The notes under the pieces are model-generated. The model was not told the origin of the DNA. It was given only the letters and a program-made list of their open reading frames with translations, and did not search any database. Positions 26,727 through 35,822 of a stretch of 64,000 nucleotides of DNA are shown piece by piece. The stretch's first letter is position 1. The number at the start of each line of letters is the position of its first letter. The DNA is taken from positions 174,613 to 238,612 of the forward strand of contig JAEUUA010000023.1 in NCBI GenBank assembly GCA_016787755.1, given 5' to 3'. This DNA comes from Cyclobacteriaceae bacterium (GTDB lineage: Bacteria > Bacteroidota > Bacteroidia > Cytophagales > Cyclobacteriaceae). The position numbers and the translations under genes were made by a program.

Positions 26727-28955
26727 ATGAAATTTTTCTATACCCTTCTTTCAATATTTTTAATATGTTTTTCTGCGTATTCGCAACATAAATCTGACAC
26801 TATTAAAGCATCCTATCTGGATGAAGTGGTAATCTCAGCCAATAAAATTGGTGAGCCTCGAAGGCTCGTAGCCCAACAAGTTGAGGTGATTAATTCAACA
26901 ACTATCAACAACCTCAATGCTCAAACTTCTGCTGATTTAATTCAAAACTCTGGACAGGTTGCCATGCAGCGTAGCCAGCAAGGAGGAGGAAGCCCCATCA
27001 TACGAGGCTTTGAAGCAAGTCGGGTGCTTTTAGTGATTGACGGAGTGCGCATGAACAATGCTATTTATCGCTCCGGTCATTTGCAAAACATCATCACCAT
27101 GGATAACAATGTCTTGGAACGAGCCGAGATTTTGTTTGGCCCATCTTCGACTGTTTACGGTAGTGATGCCCTGGGTGGAGTAGTTCACTTCTTCACACGC
27201 AATCCTACCTTGGCAACAAACGCAGGCATCGATATTTCAGGAAATACATTTGTGCGATTTGGTAGTGCTAACCATGAAAAAACTGCTCACTTCGATTTTA
27301 ACATTGGAGGCAAACGGTTTGCCTCTTTGTCCTCCTTTACCCTTAGCGATTTTGGTGATTTGCGCATGGGTGAAAAAACAAATCAATCGCTGGGCGAGGA
27401 ATACTGGGTTCGGTATCAATATGCAGAACGCGCTCCTGATAACTCGGGAGACGTACTCGTTCAAAACAGTGATCCCTATGTTCAAAAATTTAGCGGTTAC
27501 AAACAATACGATCTGCTCCAAAAATTTTACTTCAAACAAAATAATCGCATTCAGCATCAGCTAAATTTTCAGTATTCAACATCGAGTAACCTTCCCAGGT
27601 ATGATCGCCTTACAGATGCACAGGGTACCGGACTTCGTTCAGCTGAATGGTATTATGGTCCGCAGCAGCGATTGCTTATCTCTTATCAACTTAAACTAAC
27701 AGATTTAGGTAAATTGGCAGATGCGCTTACTACTACTGTTAGTTATCAGAATATTGAAGAAAGCCGAAACGACCGCAGATTCAACAGTAACAACTTAAAT
27801 CATCGCATCGAAAAAATTAATGTAGGTGGATTGACTATAGATTTACAAAAAAAGATTAAAGCCAATCAACTCCGCTACGGGTTTGATGGACAATCTAATA
27901 GTTTAACCTCTAGTGCTTACCGCGAAAATATTTCTTCAGGAGGTATTTCTCCCTTGGATACGCGCTATCCTGATGGTGATAATACATTAAACTATTGGGC
28001 ATTGTATGCTACCCACACGTTGCCGCTTAACGATACCTGGACATTGACTGATGGTATTCGGGTAGGCGGAAGTTCATTGCATTCAACTTTCGTTGACAAG
28101 ACTTTCTTCCCTTTTCCGTATGACGACATTAAGCAAAACAATACCTACGCAAGTGGCAATCTCGGCATCATCTATTCGCCCACCAGCTGGAAGTTTTCTT
28201 TTATGATGAGCACAGGGTATCGTGTTCCCAATATTGATGATTTAGCAAAAGTTTTTGAGTCTGTTCAAGGATCAGCCAGCACAACGGGTATGTTGGTTAT
28301 TCCCAATCCGGATTTAGTTCCTGAAAAAACAACTAATGCTGATCTAAGTATTACAAAATTCTTTGGCGCTAAGTCCAGATTGGAAGGGGTGTTGTTTGCT
28401 ACTAATTTTTTTGATGCCATTGCAACCCGACCTTCCACTCTTAATGGTCAGTCAGCGGTACTTTATAATGGATACCCGGCTAATGTTGTGAGTAGTCAAA
28501 ACGTAGGAGAAGCGTACATTTATGGATATAGTGTCAGTGGCCATTTTGAACTTATCGACCATTTAACATTGACCGCTTCCTTCAACTATACTCATGGTCG
28601 GATAAAAAATGAGGATGCCCCAGAAACTCCCCTCGATCATATTCCTCCAACGTTTGGCAGGATTGGAATAAATTATTCGAAAACAAAATTCTCTGCTGAG
28701 TTATTCTCCAATTTCAATGGTTGGAAAAGAGTAAGTAACTATAGCAGCAGCGGAGAAGATAATTTGCAGTATGCAACTTCTGAAGGAATGCCATCATGGT
28801 ATACTCTTAATCTGCGAACATCCTATATGTTGAATAAGGTAGTTACTTTTCAAGCCGGTATTGATAATTTGATGGATTTGCAGTACAGACAATTTGCATC
28901 CGGCATTAACTCACCCGGGCGCAATATCTTTGGAACTCTTCGGATTAGATTCTAA
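26727..28955 (+). CDS. TonB-dependent outer-membrane receptor, haem-receptor-like
   Basis: The 742-residue protein has a signal peptide (MKFFYTLLSIFLICFSAYSQ), a TonB-box-like start (SYLDEVVISANKIGE), a plug domain with GGGSPIIRGFEASRVLLVID and NVLERAEILFGPSSTVYGSD, and a 22-strand-type barrel ending in ...NIFGTLRIRF with C-terminal phenylalanine. The plug resembles HmuR-type haem/haemoglobin receptors. No CarboxypepD-like N-terminal domain is present, unlike SusC-type proteins. A PepSY protein gene follows at once, which supports haem or iron uptake. Exact ligand not known. Confidence 0.85.
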   Translation: MKFFYTLLSIFLICFSAYSQHKSDTIKASYLDEVVISANKIGEPRRLVAQQVEVINSTTINNLNAQTSADLIQNSGQVAMQRSQQGGGSPIIRGFEASRVLLVIDGVRMNNAIYRSGHLQNIITMDNNVLERAEILFGPSSTVYGSDALGGVVHFFTRNPTLATNAGIDISGNTFVRFGSANHEKTAHFDFNIGGKRFASLSSFTLSDFGDLRMGEKTNQSLGEEYWVRYQYAERAPDNSGDVLVQNSDPYVQKFSGYKQYDLLQKFYFKQNNRIQHQLNFQYSTSSNLPRYDRLTDAQGTGLRSAEWYYGPQQRLLISYQLKLTDLGKLADALTTTVSYQNIEESRNDRRFNSNNLNHRIEKINVGGLTIDLQKKIKANQLRYGFDGQSNSLTSSAYRENISSGGISPLDTRYPDGDNTLNYWALYATHTLPLNDTWTLTDGIRVGGSSLHSTFVDKTFFPFPYDDIKQNNTYASGNLGIIYSPTSWKFSFMMSTGYRVPNIDDLAKVFESVQGSASTTGMLVIPNPDLVPEKTTNADLSITKFFGAKSRLEGVLFATNFFDAIATRPSTLNGQSAVLYNGYPANVVSSQNVGEAYIYGYSVSGHFELIDHLTLTASFNYTHGRIKNEDAPETPLDHIPPTFGRIGINYSKTKFSAELFSNFNGWKRVSNYSSSGEDNLQYATSEGMPSWYTLNLRTSYMLNKVVTFQAGIDNLMDLQYRQFASGINSPGRNIFGTLRIRF

Positions 28956-29010
28956 TTTATTTTTTGTTGTCTTGCACAAAAGTGCTGAACAACCTTTTTA
29001 CCTTCTGTTT

Positions 29011-29544
29011 ATGGCAATACAAAACTTAGTTTATCGGCTTCGCCAATTTAGATCCATTCATAAATGGATTGGAATTAGCGTTTTTCTGTTTATGATCATT
29101 ACTGCCTCCACAGGTGTTTTATTAGGGTGGAAAAAGAACGTTAATCTTTTACAACCGTCAACAGTAAAAGGATCAACTCTTGCGATGGATAAATGGGTTG
29201 GTTTTGATCAGGTTGCACACGCTGCTATGCGTGGGATTGATTCTGTTACCGCCAGAAAAATTGAGATTGATCGCATGGATGTACGGCCCGACAAGGGAAT
29301 TATTAAGGTAACTTTTAAAGAAGAAAATTGGGAAGCACAAATAGATGGAGGTACAGGAAAAGTTCTATCTGTTGCCCAGCGCCATGCCGATTGGATCGAA
29401 CATATTCATGACGGATCAATCATTAGCGAGTCGTTCAAAATAGTTTATACCAACTATCTTGGTTGGGGATTATTATTTCTATCCATCACAGGATTATGGC
29501 TTTGGTATGGTCCCAAAGTAATTCGAAAAGCAAAGAATACTTAA
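29011..29544 (+). CDS. PepSY-domain membrane protein (iron uptake associated)
   Basis: From ATG 29011 (MAIQNLVYRLRQFRSIHKWI) the protein has 177 residues. It has an N-terminal membrane helix (about 19-40, GISVFLFMIITASTGVLLGW), a periplasmic PepSY-type part (DRMDVRPDKGIIKVTFKEEN, then GKVLSVAQRHADWIEHIHDG) and a C-terminal helix (YLGWGLLFLSITGLWLWYGP). This is the short PepSY_TM type often linked to siderophore or haem receptors; the TonB receptor gene ends 55 bases upstream. An upstream ATG at 28894 lies within that gene and is unlikely. Its stop overlaps the converging crtY stop by 4 bases. Confidence 0.8.
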   Translation: MAIQNLVYRLRQFRSIHKWIGISVFLFMIITASTGVLLGWKKNVNLLQPSTVKGSTLAMDKWVGFDQVAHAAMRGIDSVTARKIEIDRMDVRPDKGIIKVTFKEENWEAQIDGGTGKVLSVAQRHADWIEHIHDGSIISESFKIVYTNYLGWGLLFLSITGLWLWYGPKVIRKAKNT

Positions 29545-30245
29545 TTAGTGCTACCTTGATACTTTGATTGCAGGGCTTCAAAGATGGTGACGTTCATGAG
29601 AATCAACATCATACCATAAATTGTATCTTCAACCGGTATTGTTCCCAATCTGATTCCTAAATTCTCAGCATCATTATACCACACCACAGGACTCTCTATC
29701 CCTGTTCCGGTAAGGATTCCATTAACCAGCACAAATGGGATAAGAATAAACAGAAAAGAAAGATAAAACTTACCTAAATATTTGGGCTTCACCATAAAGT
29801 GAAGATAAATCAAGAATAAAGCGCACGATAGAAACGTAACAGACGTGTACCACCGATCTAAATTGCTAAACGCAAGAACTGAAAGAATCACGATAAGCAA
29901 ACCTGTTATTACATTTGTAAACGGCTGGAGGTAATCTCTTTTTGAGAAGAAACCCACTGCCTCGTACGTGAATACGCAAGCATACGGAATACAAATAAAG
30001 AAAAGTATTTCTTCCATCGGCAAATCAAAAAAATAGATGCCAAGTAAATAGTCGGAATTAAACCCCCAAACTCCCATTCTGGTAAACCATACATCCCATA
30101 CCAAAAACAAAATAGCCGGAAAAAAAATGGCTGGAAAAAGATACCTCCATTTTTTTGAGAAATTGGCTTTTGGATGAAAACTAAACAAGAAGGGGAGCGA
30201 GATAGCGCCTAAATCAATGAAAAGATATAGATATTTTAAATTCAA
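29541..30245 (-). CDS. crtY: lycopene cyclase, fused CrtYc-CrtYd type
   Basis: Cyclises lycopene to beta-carotene in the membrane. The 234-residue protein has about seven hydrophobic helices and two repeats of the lycopene-cyclase domain: the first with WDVWFTRMGVWGF and FDLPMEEILFFICIPY, the second with GILTGTGIESPVVWYN and IPVEDTIYGM. In actinobacteria the two halves are separate CrtYc and CrtYd proteins; here they are one chain, as in other Bacteroidota and fungi. Last gene of the crt operon, 6 bases after crtZ. Confidence 0.88.
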   Translation of the reverse strand: MNLKYLYLFIDLGAISLPFLFSFHPKANFSKKWRYLFPAIFFPAILFLVWDVWFTRMGVWGFNSDYLLGIYFFDLPMEEILFFICIPYACVFTYEAVGFFSKRDYLQPFTNVITGLLIVILSVLAFSNLDRWYTSVTFLSCALFLIYLHFMVKPKYLGKFYLSFLFILIPFVLVNGILTGTGIESPVVWYNDAENLGIRLGTIPVEDTIYGMMLILMNVTIFEALQSKYQGSTN

Positions 30246-30251
30246 AATATC

Positions 30252-30746
30252 CTATTGGGTTTCCTGACGGTCCTTACGGAATTTCAATTCCTTCGGTTGA
30301 TACTTTTTGGGTGCATATAAAAAACCAAATGCTTCGCAGTCTTCTTTGGTGTGTTTGCTATGATGAATGTAGTGTGCATTGATCATTCGTTCCAGATATT
30401 TGCTTTTCTTTCTAAGGCGCCACTTAATTCGTTGATGAACAAGAAAATCGTGAAACACGATATAGAAAACTCCATAACAAAAGATACCAAGGCCAATTGC
30501 CAGTATATAAGGATTGTAAGACACAACACTCCCATAATAGAACAAGCCAATGGATGGCAAGCTAAAAACAACTGCAAACCAATCGTTTTTCTCAAGCGCA
30601 TGATTATGCACCGAATGGTGGGACTTATGCCACACCCATAAAACGCCATGCATGATGTATTTATGGGTAAACCAAGCAACGAATTCCCAAAAAAGAAAAG
30701 TTCCTATCGCAATGCCCGCACAGATCAAAATTGTACTCAACTCCAT
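30252..30746 (-). CDS. crtZ: beta-carotene hydroxylase
   Basis: Membrane di-iron hydroxylase that converts beta-carotene to zeaxanthin. The 164-residue protein has the fatty-acid-hydroxylase histidine clusters in order: HKYIMHG (about 28-34), HKSHHSVHN (about 40-48), HDFLVHQ (about 97-103) and HYIHHSKH (about 124-131). Four hydrophobic segments alternate with them. It starts 1 base after the SRPBCC gene stop, so translation is probably coupled. Confidence 0.9.
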   Translation of the reverse strand: MELSTILICAGIAIGTFLFWEFVAWFTHKYIMHGVLWVWHKSHHSVHNHALEKNDWFAVVFSLPSIGLFYYGSVVSYNPYILAIGLGIFCYGVFYIVFHDFLVHQRIKWRLRKKSKYLERMINAHYIHHSKHTKEDCEAFGFLYAPKKYQPKELKFRKDRQETQ

Positions 30747-30747
30747 A

Positions 30748-31236
30748 TCAAACTGTAGTTAACATCCCCGCTTTCTCTTTCGCAAAATAAGTTTCAAGCA
30801 CGTTATAGCGATGATCAAAAATAGCATTTACCTGACGCTCCACAAAAAGCCAATGAGCCAGTTGACCAATAAGACCAAATGGGATTGCATAATTTACTTC
30901 ATCAATCATTTCTACTCCAGCATCGGTGGTACTAAAATGATGTTGGTGGTGCCAGAGCGCATAAGGACCAAATCGTTGTTCGTCAACAAAATAATTTTTG
31001 TCCCCTACGTGCGTGATCTCAGTTACCCATGTAACACGGACGCCACCTAAAATTTTTATTTTGTAGGTTATGATTTGGCCTGGATAAGTCTTATTCCCTC
31101 CTGATATATACTGGATATCAAAACCCATTTCGCCAGGGGTAATTTTACTTAAATTTTTTGGATTGGAGAAGAAGTCCCAAGCATCATCTAAACTAATGGG
31201 TAGAACTTGTTTTCGCTGTAGATTATAAATTTTCAC
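30748..31236 (-). CDS. SRPBCC (START-like) ligand-binding protein of the carotenoid operon
   Basis: The 162-residue protein has the SRPBCC/polyketide-cyclase-like pattern: LPISLDDAWDFFSNPKNLSK near the N-terminus, GGVRVTWVTEITHVG and FVDEQRFGPYALWHHQHHF in the middle, and a C-terminal helix (RQVNAIFDHRYNVLETYF). Such proteins recur inside Bacteroidota crt clusters, where the role is not settled; binding or handing over a hydrophobic intermediate is a reasonable guess. It lies 53 bases after idi and 1 base before crtZ. Confidence 0.8.
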   Translation of the reverse strand: MKIYNLQRKQVLPISLDDAWDFFSNPKNLSKITPGEMGFDIQYISGGNKTYPGQIITYKIKILGGVRVTWVTEITHVGDKNYFVDEQRFGPYALWHHQHHFSTTDAGVEMIDEVNYAIPFGLIGQLAHWLFVERQVNAIFDHRYNVLETYFAKEKAGMLTTV

Positions 31237-31289: not shown

Positions 31290-31802
31290 CTACGCCTTAT
31301 TTACAGAATACTTATCCGCCAAAATAGTTTTGAACCAATGTGTGAATTGAGCTGGATTTTCTTCAACCTGGTTTAGAAGTTGTTGCTGATCCACAAACTT
31401 CCAGTCTTCTACCTCAGCTTTGTTTATTTTGGGAATACCATCAAACGTTGCAACAAATACATGATCTAATTCATGTTCAATCAAACTGTTTGAGAACGAA
31501 ACCTTATAAATAAATTTGTACGAAAAGGTAGGCGTTAATTCTATTCCTAATTCTTCTTTGATTCTTCGCGCAACAGCCTCTTCAGTTTTCTCCCCGGGTT
31601 TTGGATGGCTGCAACATGCATTAGACCAAAGTCCTCCGCTATGGTATTTAGACTTAGCCCGCTTTTGAATTAAAATTTCGCCCATCGAATTTTCAATCAT
31701 GACCGAAAAGGCTCTGTGCATAACCCCTTTTCTATGTGCCTCCAGTTTTTCCATGGTGCCAATCTGTTGATCATGCTCGTTAACCAATATTACTTCCTCC
31801 AT
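31290..31802 (-). CDS. idi: isopentenyl-diphosphate delta-isomerase, type 1
   Basis: Interconverts isopentenyl and dimethylallyl diphosphate, the C5 building blocks for carotenoids. The 170-residue Nudix-fold enzyme has VNEHDQQIGTMEKLEAHRKG at the N-terminus, the catalytic cysteine in SNACCSHPKPGEK (about residue 66), the Nudix helix EEAVARRIKEELGI and the catalytic glutamate region EVEDWKFV. Starts 2 bases after the crtB stop, inside the crt operon. Confidence 0.93.
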   Translation of the reverse strand: MEEVILVNEHDQQIGTMEKLEAHRKGVMHRAFSVMIENSMGEILIQKRAKSKYHSGGLWSNACCSHPKPGEKTEEAVARRIKEELGIELTPTFSYKFIYKVSFSNSLIEHELDHVFVATFDGIPKINKAEVEDWKFVDQQQLLNQVEENPAQFTHWFKTILADKYSVNKA

Positions 31803-31804
31803 GG

Positions 31805-32662
31805 TTAGATAAGATTGAGTTGATATTTGACATACGATAAAAAAAGAATTGAAAATTTTTGACGATTCCTAACTCTAATTCTTTCTTTCATCACAAACTC
31901 TGAGGGTATATTTTTTATCTTCTTAAATAAAGCCTGATAATAAAGGTAGGCAATATAAACTCCAAATTTTGCACCCTTTGGGAGTTGCTTGATCCCCAAG
32001 TATCCTTCATGAAAATCAGCCGCAATTTGTGCTTCTATTTCTTTTTTACACGTATCGTCAAATGTATTCAAATCGATTCCCGGAAAATAAGACCTACCCA
32101 TACTTTTATAATCTGCATTAAGATCTCGAAGAAAATTGATTTTTTGAAATGCTGACCCAAGCTTCATCGCCATGGGTTTTAGCTTTTCGTACATCATTTG
32201 GTCACCTTTGCAAAATACTTTTAAACACATAAGGCCCACTACCTCAGCCGAACCCAATATATATTCTTCAAAAGAATTCTTATTATGCTTTTTAGTATCC
32301 AGATCCATCTCCATGCTATGGAGAAACTGACGGATTAGTTCCTGGTCAATAGCGTATGTATTAACGGTATGTTGAAAACTATTCAAAATAGGGTTTAGGC
32401 TAATTTTTTCATCAATTGCCTGATAAGTGTCCGATTGAAATCGATCCAGCAATAATCGCTTATCGTAATCATGAAAGGTATCAACGATTTCATCGGCAAA
32501 GCGAACAAATCCGTAAATTGAGTAAATTGGATTACGCAATTCTTTTTCAAGGCAAAAAATACCCAATGAAAAGGAGGTGCTATACGATTTTGTAGTAAGC
32601 TTTGAACACTGAATGGAGACATGATCATATAATTCTTTCCCTATCATCGTTTTTTTAATCAC
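31805..32662 (-). CDS. crtB: phytoene synthase
   Basis: Joins two geranylgeranyl diphosphates to make phytoene, the first carotenoid step. The 285-residue protein is all helical with SKLTTKSYSTSFSLG near residue 20, the first aspartate-rich motif in YGFVRFADEIVD (about 50-61) and the second in INFLRDLNADYKSMGRSYFP (about 175-194). Start ATG 32662; the in-frame ATG at 32647 (MIGKELYDHVS) is an equally likely start. It follows crtI by 10 bases. Confidence 0.93.
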   Translation of the reverse strand: MIKKTMIGKELYDHVSIQCSKLTTKSYSTSFSLGIFCLEKELRNPIYSIYGFVRFADEIVDTFHDYDKRLLLDRFQSDTYQAIDEKISLNPILNSFQHTVNTYAIDQELIRQFLHSMEMDLDTKKHNKNSFEEYILGSAEVVGLMCLKVFCKGDQMMYEKLKPMAMKLGSAFQKINFLRDLNADYKSMGRSYFPGIDLNTFDDTCKKEIEAQIAADFHEGYLGIKQLPKGAKFGVYIAYLYYQALFKKIKNIPSEFVMKERIRVRNRQKFSILFLSYVKYQLNLI

Positions 32663-32672
32663 GTTAAGTTAC

Positions 32673-34145
32673 TTATTTATCTCTTTTCATTAGCTCATTG
32701 GCCACCACTTGTCCTGAAATCAGTGAAGGTGGAACCCCAGGTCCGGGAACTGTTAACTGGCCCGTGTAAAACAGATTACTCACCTTTTTGTTTATGATTG
32801 AAGGCTTTAAATTGGCTGTTTGGCTAATCGTATTGGCCAATCCATATGCATTGCCTTTATACGAGTTATAATTTTCAATAAAATCGCGGTGAGCGTAACT
32901 CTTTTTATAAACAACATTTGATTTGATGGATTGCCCCGTCAGTTTCTCCATTCTATCAATTACCTGCTCAAAATATTTCTCTCTTGTTGAGTCTTCATCT
33001 GCCAGTCCGGAGGCAACGGGTATAAGAATGAAAAGATTTTCACAGCCTTCGGGAGCAACAGTTTCGTCTGTTTTTGATGGACAGCAAACATAAAATAGTG
33101 GATCAGTTGGCCAGGATGGATCCTTATAGATTTCATCGGCATGTTGTTTGAAATCCGTATCGAAAAATAGGTTATGATGTAGAAGGTTATCTAACTTTTT
33201 ATTAACACCAAGATAAAATATCAAACTGGAAGGAGCCAAACTTCTATCATCCCAATACTTTTCAGAATACCTGCGATAAGAAATTGGAAGTAGTTCCTGC
33301 TCTACGTGATTGTAATCTGCTCCCGCCACCACGTGATCAGTCTCTATTGATCTCCCTGCAACGGTGATGGCCTCAATTTTATTCCCACTTAAAACCAGAC
33401 CTTCGACCGGACTATTAAACAAAAATTTTACACCCTTTTCTTCTGCCAAGTTAACCATGCCTTCCACAAGCTTAAACATCCCCCCTTTTGGATACCAGGT
33501 TCCCAGGGACATATCCGCATAGTTCATCAAACTGTAAAGAGCTGGTGTGTGCGAAGGCGATGCTCCGAGGAATAAAACAGGAAACTCAAGTAATTGAATC
33601 AGCTTTGGAGATTTAAAATACTTTCTGATGTAGGAACTGATCGATTGAAAGACATGAAGTTTAAAAATGCCTCTAATAAGAGAAAGGTCAAAAAGCTCTG
33701 CAATTGACAATCCTGGATTATACACTAGATTTTCAACACCCACCTTATACTTGTACTTGCCTTCTTCTAAAAACTTTTCGAGTTGTTTACTACTTCCTGT
33801 CTCTTCTCGCTCAAAAAGTGAATAAATGTCGTCTTGCTTTGCAGGAATGTTCCAAACTTCTTTTTTAGAAAAGAGTACCTGGTAAGATGGGTCTAATCGG
33901 ATGAGCTCGTAATAGTCTGAAACTGTTTTTCCGAATTTGTTGAAATACTTTTCAAACACGTCCGGCATCCAATACCAACTCGGGCCCATATCAAAAACAA
34001 ATCCGTCTGATTCAAATTTTCGGGCTCGCCCTCCAGCCGAACAGTTTTTTTCATACACCGTTACGTCATACCCTTCAGCTGCCAACGTAGTAGCTGCAGC
34101 TATTCCTGCAAAACCGGCACCTATTACGGCTACTTTGCCTTTCAT
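32673..34145 (-). CDS. crtI: phytoene desaturase
   Basis: FAD-dependent CrtI-type enzyme that desaturates phytoene to lycopene. The 490-residue protein has the N-terminal dinucleotide motif AVIGAGFAGIAAATTLAAEG, then VYEKNCSAGGRARKFESDGF and FDMGPSWYWMP, and the C-terminal signature NLFYTGQLTVPGPGVPPSLI. First gene of the crt operon, 89 bases after the ECF sigma gene. Its upstream region shows no TAnnTTTG promoter in the right place, in keeping with use of the neighbouring sigma factor (inference). Confidence 0.94.
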   Translation of the reverse strand: MKGKVAVIGAGFAGIAAATTLAAEGYDVTVYEKNCSAGGRARKFESDGFVFDMGPSWYWMPDVFEKYFNKFGKTVSDYYELIRLDPSYQVLFSKKEVWNIPAKQDDIYSLFEREETGSSKQLEKFLEEGKYKYKVGVENLVYNPGLSIAELFDLSLIRGIFKLHVFQSISSYIRKYFKSPKLIQLLEFPVLFLGASPSHTPALYSLMNYADMSLGTWYPKGGMFKLVEGMVNLAEEKGVKFLFNSPVEGLVLSGNKIEAITVAGRSIETDHVVAGADYNHVEQELLPISYRRYSEKYWDDRSLAPSSLIFYLGVNKKLDNLLHHNLFFDTDFKQHADEIYKDPSWPTDPLFYVCCPSKTDETVAPEGCENLFILIPVASGLADEDSTREKYFEQVIDRMEKLTGQSIKSNVVYKKSYAHRDFIENYNSYKGNAYGLANTISQTANLKPSIINKKVSNLFYTGQLTVPGPGVPPSLISGQVVANELMKRDK

Positions 34146-34234: not shown

Positions 34235-34729
34235 TCACTTAACCATTCGTTTTTGAATCTCTTTGCGGGCATGAAAGATTCTATTCTTAACAGTTCCGAT
34301 GGGAATATTTAAATGATCAGCAATTTCATTGTATTTGTATCCCGTTTCGTACATCTTAAATGGGATTTGCAGTTCAGACTTTACATCATTAATATTTTCC
34401 CATATTTCATTAAACTCAAATAGTTTTTCGGGACGATTGGGTGTGTTGATGTCCGCCACATTTAGAAAGTAGAGGTCTTTCGTATTATCCGTTGAAGTCT
34501 TAGCAATCTTAGACTTCCGGTAATTATTGATGAATGTGTTTCGCATGATTGTAAAAAGCCACCCCTTCAGGTTTGTATCCTTCTTGAATTTACTTTTGTA
34601 AACCAGCGCTTTCAAGATCGTATCCTGAACCAAATCCTGCGATTCTTCCTGATTTTTAGTGAATCGGTAAGTAAATTGCTTTAGAGTGCCCTCTAACTCG
34701 CAAATCTGTGAAACAAGTTCTGCTTCCAT
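34235..34729 (-). CDS. ECF sigma factor, probable regulator of the crt operon (LitS-like)
   Basis: The 164-residue protein has region 2 (NQEESQDLVQDTILKALVYK and LKGWLFTIMRNTFINNYRKS) and region 4 (PFKMYETGYKYNEIADHLNI, then IGTVKNRIFHARKEIQ). It lies between the CarH/LitR-like gene and crtI, all on one strand. In Streptomyces a LitR photoreceptor controls the sigma gene litS, which drives crt genes; the same order here suggests the same relay. The promoter region carries a consensus promoter and two identical 30-bp dyads. No anti-sigma gene is adjacent. Confidence 0.88.
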   Translation of the reverse strand: MEAELVSQICELEGTLKQFTYRFTKNQEESQDLVQDTILKALVYKSKFKKDTNLKGWLFTIMRNTFINNYRKSKIAKTSTDNTKDLYFLNVADINTPNRPEKLFEFNEIWENINDVKSELQIPFKMYETGYKYNEIADHLNIPIGTVKNRIFHARKEIQKRMVK

Positions 34730-34732
34730 ATT

Positions 34733-34762
34733 TGTTTAATTTTATTAGTTCAAAGTTAAACA
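34733..34762 (-). promoter_or_regulatory. operator dyad 2, overlapping the -7 element of the sigma gene
   Basis: TGTTTAA (34733-34739), 16 bases, TTAAACA (34756-34762). The dyad covers the -7 element (34751-34758) and the predicted transcription start and ends 3 bases before the ATG. The same arrangement occurs at 34796-34825. Binding here would block the promoter. Confidence 0.65.
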
Positions 34763-34780
34763 TATTTTCCGTTAAAACAA
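34751..34780 (-). promoter_or_regulatory. consensus promoter of the crt-cluster sigma gene
   Basis: On the minus strand TTG (34778-34780), a 19-base spacer, then TAACTTTG (34751-34758): an exact match to TTG-N19-TAnnTTTG. Transcription would start about 15 bases before the ATG. The -7 element lies inside dyad 2. Confidence 0.7.
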
Positions 34781-34795
34781 CTAGTACGGACATAA

Positions 34796-34825
34796 TGTTT
34801 AAGTATTTACAATAAATATTAAACA
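34796..34825 (-). promoter_or_regulatory. operator dyad 1, upstream of the sigma gene promoter
   Basis: TGTTTAA (34796-34802), 16 bases, TTAAACA (34819-34825), with further pairing inside (GTATTTA against TAAATA, one base unpaired). It sits 63 bases (about six helical turns) from dyad 2 and 2 bases beyond the CarH-like stop codon. A hairpin ending the CarH-like transcript is the alternative, but there is no T run. Confidence 0.6.
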
Positions 34826-34827
34826 AT

Positions 34828-35697
34828 CTATTCCAGAATTGCCTTTAACTCAACTGCGTTCTTGAAATGCTTAAAGTTTGTGCTTTGAGGTACCAATGCT
34901 TCGGAGAAGTTGCCCGAAGCCAGTACCTCAGAATCTGGAAAGTCTGCGATTAACCTCTCAATGTAAATCTTTGTCTTTTGTGGCTTTTGTGTACTTATCA
35001 ATGAGGTAATAATAAATTTTGGGTGATATGCCTGGCAAACTTTTCTCAAATCTTCATAAGGAAGATGTTGTCCTAAATAAAACGTTCTGAACCCGATTTT
35101 CTTTACTATAAAATGATAAAACAGCAGACCGATTTCATGGAGTTCATTTTCGGGTAGAAAAAGTACAACCTTATCCGCATCCTTTGCAGGAAATGGCAGT
35201 GAATCAATAGCGACAATAATTTTTTGGCGAATGAGATTGGATATAAAATGCTCCTGTGCGGGGGAAATATTTTTTGTCTGCCACAGGATACCAATTTTTT
35301 CAAGGAAGGGATAAACGATTTCAAGAACGGTTCGCTCAAAACCAAATTTCATGATTAAATGGGCCAACAATTTTTCAAACTGCTCTTCTTCCATATCAAT
35401 CATACTCATAATAAATTGATCGATAAAGATCGTAGCCTCGTTTTGACTTGAAGTTAACTGCACTACTTCGGAATTAATCTCCCCATCGCTCATCCCTGCG
35501 ATCTTAGAAATTTTTAAGCCATAATTATTCAGCAAGGATACATTAATAATTTTTCTCAAATCCGCGTCAGAATAATAGCGGACATTGGTTAATGTTCGTT
35601 GAGGCTCGATGATACGGTGGCGCTTTTCCCAAATACGAATGGTGTGAGCTTTAATTCCGGATAATGTCTCAAGTTCTTTTATTGAATACTTTCCCAT
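34828..35697 (-). CDS. MerR-type cobalamin-binding photoreceptor repressor, CarH/LitR class
   Basis: From ATG 35697 (MGKYSIKELETLSGIKAHTI) the protein has 289 residues. The N-terminal MerR winged-helix (IRIWEKRHRIIEPQRT, then VRYYSDADLRKI) covers about 1-70. A four-helix B12-cap follows with the CarH signature W-x9-EH (LWQTKNISPAQEH, about residue 150). The cobalamin-binding Rossmann domain has ELHEIG, containing the histidine that ligates cobalt, and a TFYLGQHLPYEDL stretch. In known CarH proteins adenosylcobalamin drives DNA binding in the dark and light releases it. Position beside the sigma/crt genes fits light-induced carotenoid synthesis. Confidence 0.9.
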   Translation of the reverse strand: MGKYSIKELETLSGIKAHTIRIWEKRHRIIEPQRTLTNVRYYSDADLRKIINVSLLNNYGLKISKIAGMSDGEINSEVVQLTSSQNEATIFIDQFIMSMIDMEEEQFEKLLAHLIMKFGFERTVLEIVYPFLEKIGILWQTKNISPAQEHFISNLIRQKIIVAIDSLPFPAKDADKVVLFLPENELHEIGLLFYHFIVKKIGFRTFYLGQHLPYEDLRKVCQAYHPKFIITSLISTQKPQKTKIYIERLIADFPDSEVLASGNFSEALVPQSTNFKHFKNAVELKAILE

Positions 35698-35822
35698 AGT
35701 ACTGTTTCGAACCAATAACCCTCTGCTACAGTAAATTGTTTACCTGGATGCTTCATTTTTTTGTTATGAGTACATACAGTTTAAAACACGAATGAATGAT
35801 ATGTCTTAAAAAACAAATCTTT

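Follow-up and report, generated by a model that had tools for sequence, protein, structure and literature searches.

Gene organization of the locus

The 64,000-nucleotide stretch of DNA analyzed here (the window) comes from a Bacteroidota genome whose closest named relatives are Flammeovirgaceae/Cyclobacteriaceae MAGs. On the minus strand it carries, in this order, a carH-like gene, a 98-bp gap, an ECF sigma factor gene, crtI, crtB, idi, an SRPBCC-like gene, a crtZ-like gene and a lycopene cyclase gene. The product of the first gene (34828-35715) is a CarH-like regulator with Pfam MerR_1 and B12-binding_2 domains, and the conserved start of the gene is probably the ATG at 35697. The ECF sigma factor gene (34235-34729; Pfam Sigma70_r2 and Sigma70_r4_2), the first gene of the putative operon, has an ortholog at the corresponding position in congeners. 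It is followed by crtI, encoding phytoene desaturase (32673-34145; NCBIfam CrtID, 752 bits compared to a cut-off of 640), a crtB-like phytoene synthase gene (31805-32662; Pfam SQS_PSY) and idi, encoding isopentenyl-diphosphate isomerase (31290-31802; NCBIfam PRK03759 above cut-off). The SRPBCC-like gene (30748-31236) and the crtZ-like hydroxylase gene (30252-30746) had no match in Pfam or NCBIfam; the former was named by its position and the look of its sequence only, and the latter by its histidine-rich sequence and position only. The last gene encodes a lycopene cyclase of the CarR-domain type (29541-30245; Pfam Lycopene_cyc and NCBIfam CarR_dom_SF). Directly past it, genes for a TonB-dependent receptor and a PepSY_TM protein (26727-29544) are convergent to the crt cluster.

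The MerR DNA-binding domain of the CarH-like protein (Pfam MerR_1, 4.5e-12) has the recognition helix RIWEKRH, which is RxWERRY-like and reads RIWE[KQR]R[YHF] in relatives. The protein matched Thermus CarH (5c8d) over its full length (residues 3-236, E 2e-17) and keeps the Wx9EH motif (WQTKNISPAQEH) and the ExHxxG lower-ligand motif (ELHEIG). Further along in the B12 motif (x41-SxT/V-x22-27-GG), S-L-I stands for SxT/V at the right distance and G-N for GG, and some relatives have SLT or GG there. The NCBIfam CarH equivalog model NF052513 gave 87 bits (E 1.2e-24) and its 400-bit cut-off was not reached, so the protein is a CarH homolog and not an assigned equivalog.

The residue that follows the Trp of Wx9EH, at the position of His132 in Thermus CarH, is Gln in the window protein. 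Across Bacteroidota homologs (L001-L030 and L063-L142) this position is Gln or hydrophobic in nearly all, with His in none of 80 named Bacteroidota relatives and in 3 of the 30 loci of a separate homolog set. In Thermus CarH, His132 is the upper ligand that makes the bis-His light state; a His132 Ala variant was reported to remain mostly tetrameric in the light, although disassembly had been reported in an earlier study (PMC10442372). Many CarH proteins, but not all, carry this His. Natural variation at this position, Gln included, has been described (PMC11796333). A cobalamin adenosyltransferase gene was found in the source genome. By homology, photoreception by the CarH-like protein is likely, and its mechanism may differ from that of Thermus CarH.

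Two dyads bracket the predicted promoter of the sigma factor gene

The sequence-only reading had placed two exact copies of the dyad TGTTTAA-N16-TTAAACA 63 bases apart in the 98-base gap between carH and the sigma factor gene, and both were found as placed. The gap (34730-34827) contains the proximal dyad at 34733-34762 (TGTTTAATTTTATTAGTTCAAAGTTAAACA), 3 bp ahead of the sigma ATG, and the distal dyad at 34796-34825 (TGTTTAAGTATTTACAATAAATATTAAACA), 2 bp past the carH stop codon. Both are exact matches, neither is assigned to a strand, and both are predicted CarH operators. They are 63 bp apart from start to start and 33 bp from edge to edge, and each consists of two inverted TnnACA half-sites (TTAAACA) at 23 bp from start to start.

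Exact dyads occurred only twice in the whole genome (4.74 Mb), both times in this gap. Under a first-order Markov model built from the window, 0.14 exact dyads would be expected in a genome and 2e-6 in a 98-bp gap. When one mismatch or fewer was allowed, three sites were found in all in the whole genome (one extra site) compared to three for a reversed-pattern control, and with two or fewer there were 55 sites compared to 76. The weaker dyads (one or two mismatches, whole genome) thus showed no excess over the control, which speaks against a wider CarH regulon of such sites in this genome. A scan at three mismatches found 15 sites compared to 11 expected, a tolerance at which the pattern is uninformative. 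From the distribution of sites, the sigma-crt promoter locus appears to be the sole CarH target locus in this genome.

A Bacteroidetes-type promoter of the sigma factor gene, TTG-N19-TAACTTTG, was found by pattern scan on the minus strand at 34751-34780, with TTG at 34780-34778 and TAACTTTG at 34758-34751, and has equivalents in most congeners. It was the single match to TTG-N17-21-TAnnTTTG in the 1.8 kb examined. A generic sigma-70 promoter scan did not score above shuffled sequence, which is the expected outcome in Bacteroidota. The -7 box falls within the proximal dyad, as had been noticed earlier from the sequence, so that the proximal dyad spans the -7/start region and the -33 element is immediately preceded by the distal dyad. 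In most congeners the TAnnTTTG box reaches over the outer end of the proximal dyad, and a TTG frequently lies 19 bp upstream of the box; in the source species and the nearest species the box is displaced 10 bp into the proximal dyad. At both box positions the promoter lies between the dyads and the -7/start region under the proximal dyad.

Conservation of the dyads and of their half-sites

Homologs of carH were found in 41 of the 59 genomes searched. At all 24 congeneric loci, the one in the window included, carH precedes the same sigma factor gene and at least one dyad is present, and a dyad lies approximately 10 bp or less from the sigma start. The second dyad is kept at 20 of the 24 loci, at a distance of 63 bp in 16, 64 bp in three and 62 bp in one. 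The prediction had been that relatives losing the dyads and keeping the gene order would speak against an operator function; the relatives retain the gene order and a dyad alike. The 13 carH-free congeners are uninformative as a test of the dyad because 12 of them are also without the sigma factor gene and crtI. The remaining one (G016) has kept crtI; carH, the sigma factor gene and an exact dyad are all missing.

The 88 half-sites of the 24 congeneric loci had T at position 2, A at position 5 and C at position 6 in all 88 cases and A at position 7 in 86, with variation mainly at positions 3-4 and the inner bases. The published CarH repeat is nnnnTnnACAn, with the core TnnACA (PMC9304148), and the fixed and free positions of the half-site match this core. 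The sites had been found with TGTTTAA/TTAAACA and not with TnnACA, so the positional agreement is an independent sign of CarH recognition, softened by a collection filter that allowed few mismatches to the consensus.

Genes under predicted control of the dyads

The sequence-only reading had proposed that CarH represses the sigma factor gene only and that the crt genes are switched through the sigma factor. Operators on the sigma promoter are very probably correct; the exclusivity and the relay were not supported. The gap between the sigma factor gene and crtI is 5-50 bp in most relatives, and in the window, where it is 89 bp, neither a terminator-like site, a TTG-N17-21-TAnnTTTG promoter nor a TnnACA half-site was found. 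The earlier remark that the dyad is absent upstream of crtI was borne out, the half-site being missing from this gap on both strands. In one relative without this sigma factor (G052) a dyad lies directly before crtI, so this promoter is able to drive crt itself. The simplest reading of this gene arrangement is that sigma-crtI-crtB-idi-SRPBCC-crtZ-crtY would form one operon with one CarH-controlled promoter.

A two-step circuit, in which CarH represses the sigma factor gene only and the sigma factor activates a separate crt promoter downstream, is improbable. It would agree with a sigma-crtI gap that is longer in the window than in most relatives and holds no dyad, with the presumption that an ECF sigma factor in a light-controlled operon has targets, and with a genome (G058) in which the sigma factor gene (C7:169998) lies approximately 67 kb from crtI (C7:102070). 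It is opposed by the mostly short gaps of the relatives and the missing terminator in the window, by the G052-type arrangement, and by the failure to find a sigma-type promoter before crtI. Furthermore, the sigma factor gene is kept at crt-free carH loci, which argues that crt is not its common target. A sigma relay on top of the operon is possible, though as an unneeded extra layer we would not expect it.

At some loci the sigma factor gene lies beside carH with no crt genes after it, and the sigma factor presumably has other targets. One carH-dyad-sigma unit is followed at 0 bp by a DNA photolyase gene (L073, 8563-9885) and another at 6 bp by a GTP cyclohydrolase I gene (L085, 5543-6247), suggesting that the unit belongs to a wider light-stress module. 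Both photolyase and FolE are listed as light-inducible under the control of LitR homologs in Pseudomonas putida (PMC9758184). A further crt-free carH-dyad-sigma locus of this photolyase / GTP cyclohydrolase I group was seen at L132:8408-9076.

Association of the dyad with carH across the class

The carH-dyad-sigma arrangement occurs in Cytophagales (Algoriphagus, Pontibacter, Marivirga), in Bacteroidales and in one Flavobacteriales MAG, and at 80 named Bacteroidota loci the dyad usually lies between carH and the sigma factor gene. In an evenly drawn class sample of 296 genomes, 198 had carH and 179 a sigma match, and the regions upstream of the sigma match were compared for 80 carH-bearing and 20 carH-free genomes (100 regions). 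A dyad was present upstream of the sigma factor gene in 70/80 and 1/20 of them, respectively. The 10 other carH-bearing genomes lack the N16 dyad near the sigma match, and some of these have N17. The single carH-free genome with a sigma-upstream dyad (G211:C31, locus L211) has it with one mismatch, and its carH may have been missed, recently lost or be very divergent.

The sigma matches of carH-free genomes may be paralogs, and for this reason a second comparison was set up regardless of sigma. Exact dyads were found genome-wide in 32/37 carH-bearing genomes without a crt-type sigma factor compared to 3/37 carH-free genomes, and the former held 88 exact sites compared to eight for the reversed control. 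Same-genus comparisons agreed: in g58 there were four exact dyads in G298 (carH-bearing) and none in G090 (carH-free), and in g38 two each in G174 and G225 (carH-bearing) and none in G069 (carH-free). Fisher values were approximately 4e-12 (sigma-upstream regions) and 3e-12 (genome-wide), and these are optimistic, as the genomes compared are related and the counts overstate their independence. In more than 20 genomes carH lies away from the sigma factor gene and the dyad is still with the latter, which is the prediction for a repressor acting in trans. These findings show that the dyad is associated with carH across genomes; relatives conserve it near carH, together with the gene order in the congeners and following carH class-wide. 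A chance origin of the dyads is ruled out by this association, the Markov expectation and the genome-wide scan.

Binding of the dyads by another carH-linked regulator or by a factor associated with the sigma factor gene, instead of CarH, is quite unlikely. Near carH the dyads occur mostly where the sigma factor gene follows, which would suit such a factor. In contrast, the dyads of carH-bearing genomes without this sigma factor, and their rarity in carH-free ones, counter a sigma-owned element, the half-site equals the CarH core, and sigma promoters are not palindromic. Since the site tracks carH, often in trans, and its half-site is the CarH core, the dyads are very probably CarH operators.

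The spacer was narrowly defined, with 105 sites at N16, 19 at N17 and 0-1 at N10-N15 and N18-N20. The 80 regions upstream of sigma held 107 inverted pairs at 23 bp and four direct pairs at 11 bp; tandem 11-bp direct repeats were thus not enriched there, and degenerate copies could still exist. At the sites in the window, tandem 11-bp CarH repeats were looked for and were absent. Beyond the genus, the distances between neighboring dyads group around 44, 53 and 63-64 bp, and a few fall at 35-37 and 121 bp; this hints at helical phasing in a set dominated by two clades. A spacing of 43-44 bp before the sigma factor gene was seen at L087, L094, L097, L106, L109, L110, L112, L115, L117, L123 and L129, mostly Algoriphagus and Marivirga.

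Two further arrangements were observed. Dyads lie upstream of carH itself at L076, L082 and L120 and at G158:C21:40878-40971, which suggests autoregulation in those genomes. In G276:C50, G155:C59, G085:C29 and G296:C12, two related ECF sigma matches lie less than approximately 1 kb apart on the same strand near carH.

Predicted mode of action

We consider it probable, at approximately 80%, that both dyads are operators of the adjacent CarH-like repressor, with repression in the dark and release in the light. In the dark, CarH loaded with AdoCbl would occupy both dyads of the pair that brackets the sigma-crt promoter and exclude RNA polymerase from it. On illumination the Co-C bond would be cleaved and the oligomer loosened, and from the freed promoter the ECF sigma factor and the crt enzymes would be made together. 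Binding, repression and co-transcription are what the arrangement of sites and genes points to, and dependence on AdoCbl and light is predicted by homology. Against the CarH reading stand the inverted geometry of the sites, the Gln at the His132 position and the NF052513 score far below cut-off.

It is very unlikely that CarH instead activates this promoter by classical MerR-like DNA bending at a long spacer, as its MerR-type DNA-binding domain and dyads that flank the promoter rather than merely cover it might suggest. MerR activators use one dyad between -35 and -10 at sigma-70 promoters with a 19-20-bp spacer (PMC5045206). In contrast, no dyad lies between -33 and -7 here, the proximal dyad being over the -7/start region, and the characterized CarH proteins are dark repressors (PMC9304148). 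That the dyads are leader RNA hairpins rather than protein-binding DNA sites is hardly credible: the arms are able to pair and the 101-nt segment folds at -20.6 kcal/mol (z -3.4 compared to shuffles), as expected of any mutually complementary arms, but single dyads are weak (-3.1 and -4.7 kcal/mol), the half-sites keep T and ACA as sequence with substitutions often in one arm only, and, with the distal dyad upstream of the promoter and the proximal one over its -7/start region, its transcript does not include every arm.

Comparison with known systems and significance

The predicted CarH operators share with published ones the TnnACA core, the overlap with promoter elements, a protein with Wx9EH and ExHxxG and the control of carotenoid genes. 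However, in Thermus thermophilus, Bacillus megaterium and myxobacteria CarH binds tandem 11-bp direct repeats (PMC9304148), whereas the predicted operators of the window are inverted N16 pairs (N17 in a minority) forming two dyads around one promoter. The class II LitR proteins of Pseudomonas (PplR1, PmlR2) are of the same LitR/CarH family, bind each promoter at two sites, the first covering the -35 region and the second beyond the start site, and control light-inducible genes including photolyase and folE (PMC9758184). Their site is TGTACA-N12-TGTACA, 18 bp from start to start with each half self-palindromic, compared to 23 bp for TGTTTAA-N16-TTAAACA, and the window dyads do not match their operator T(G/A)TACA-N12-TGTA(C/T)A. 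Moreover, class II LitR is not considered a B12-binding protein (PMC9758184), unlike the B12-type protein of the window. Light-controlled carotenogenesis with a repressor of the CarH type and an ECF sigma factor is also known from the M. xanthus CarQ system, in which the anti-sigma factor CarR holds CarQ, the targets activated by CarQ are carQRS and crtIb, and a different operon is under CarH (PMC9304148). In the window, the predicted CarH sites are on the sigma factor's own promoter, with crt next in the same direction.

No Bacteroidota CarH operator was found in the open-access papers searched, and subscription papers could hold one. Within the papers searched the inverted N16 geometry is new, the CarH/LitR sites described there being otherwise 11-bp direct repeats or TGTACA-N12-TGTACA. 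As a tentative reading that we put below even odds, Bacteroidota CarH would be a distinct branch of B12 photoreceptors that reads a two-fold symmetric N16 dyad, not 11-bp direct repeats, and switches with no His132 ligand, and one tetramer may clamp two dyads that are separated by approximately six helical turns, thereby trapping the promoter that lies between. That a CarH tetramer, with its four DNA-binding domains, could hold both dyads is speculation.

These findings raise the structural questions of how an inverted dyad, as opposed to direct repeats, is recognized by a CarH relative and how the latter is released without His132. They also supply a defined sequence code for what is probably B12-based light control in the whole class, with which light regulons would be predictable from sequence in Bacteroidota, including photolyase and GTP cyclohydrolase neighborhoods without carotenoid genes.
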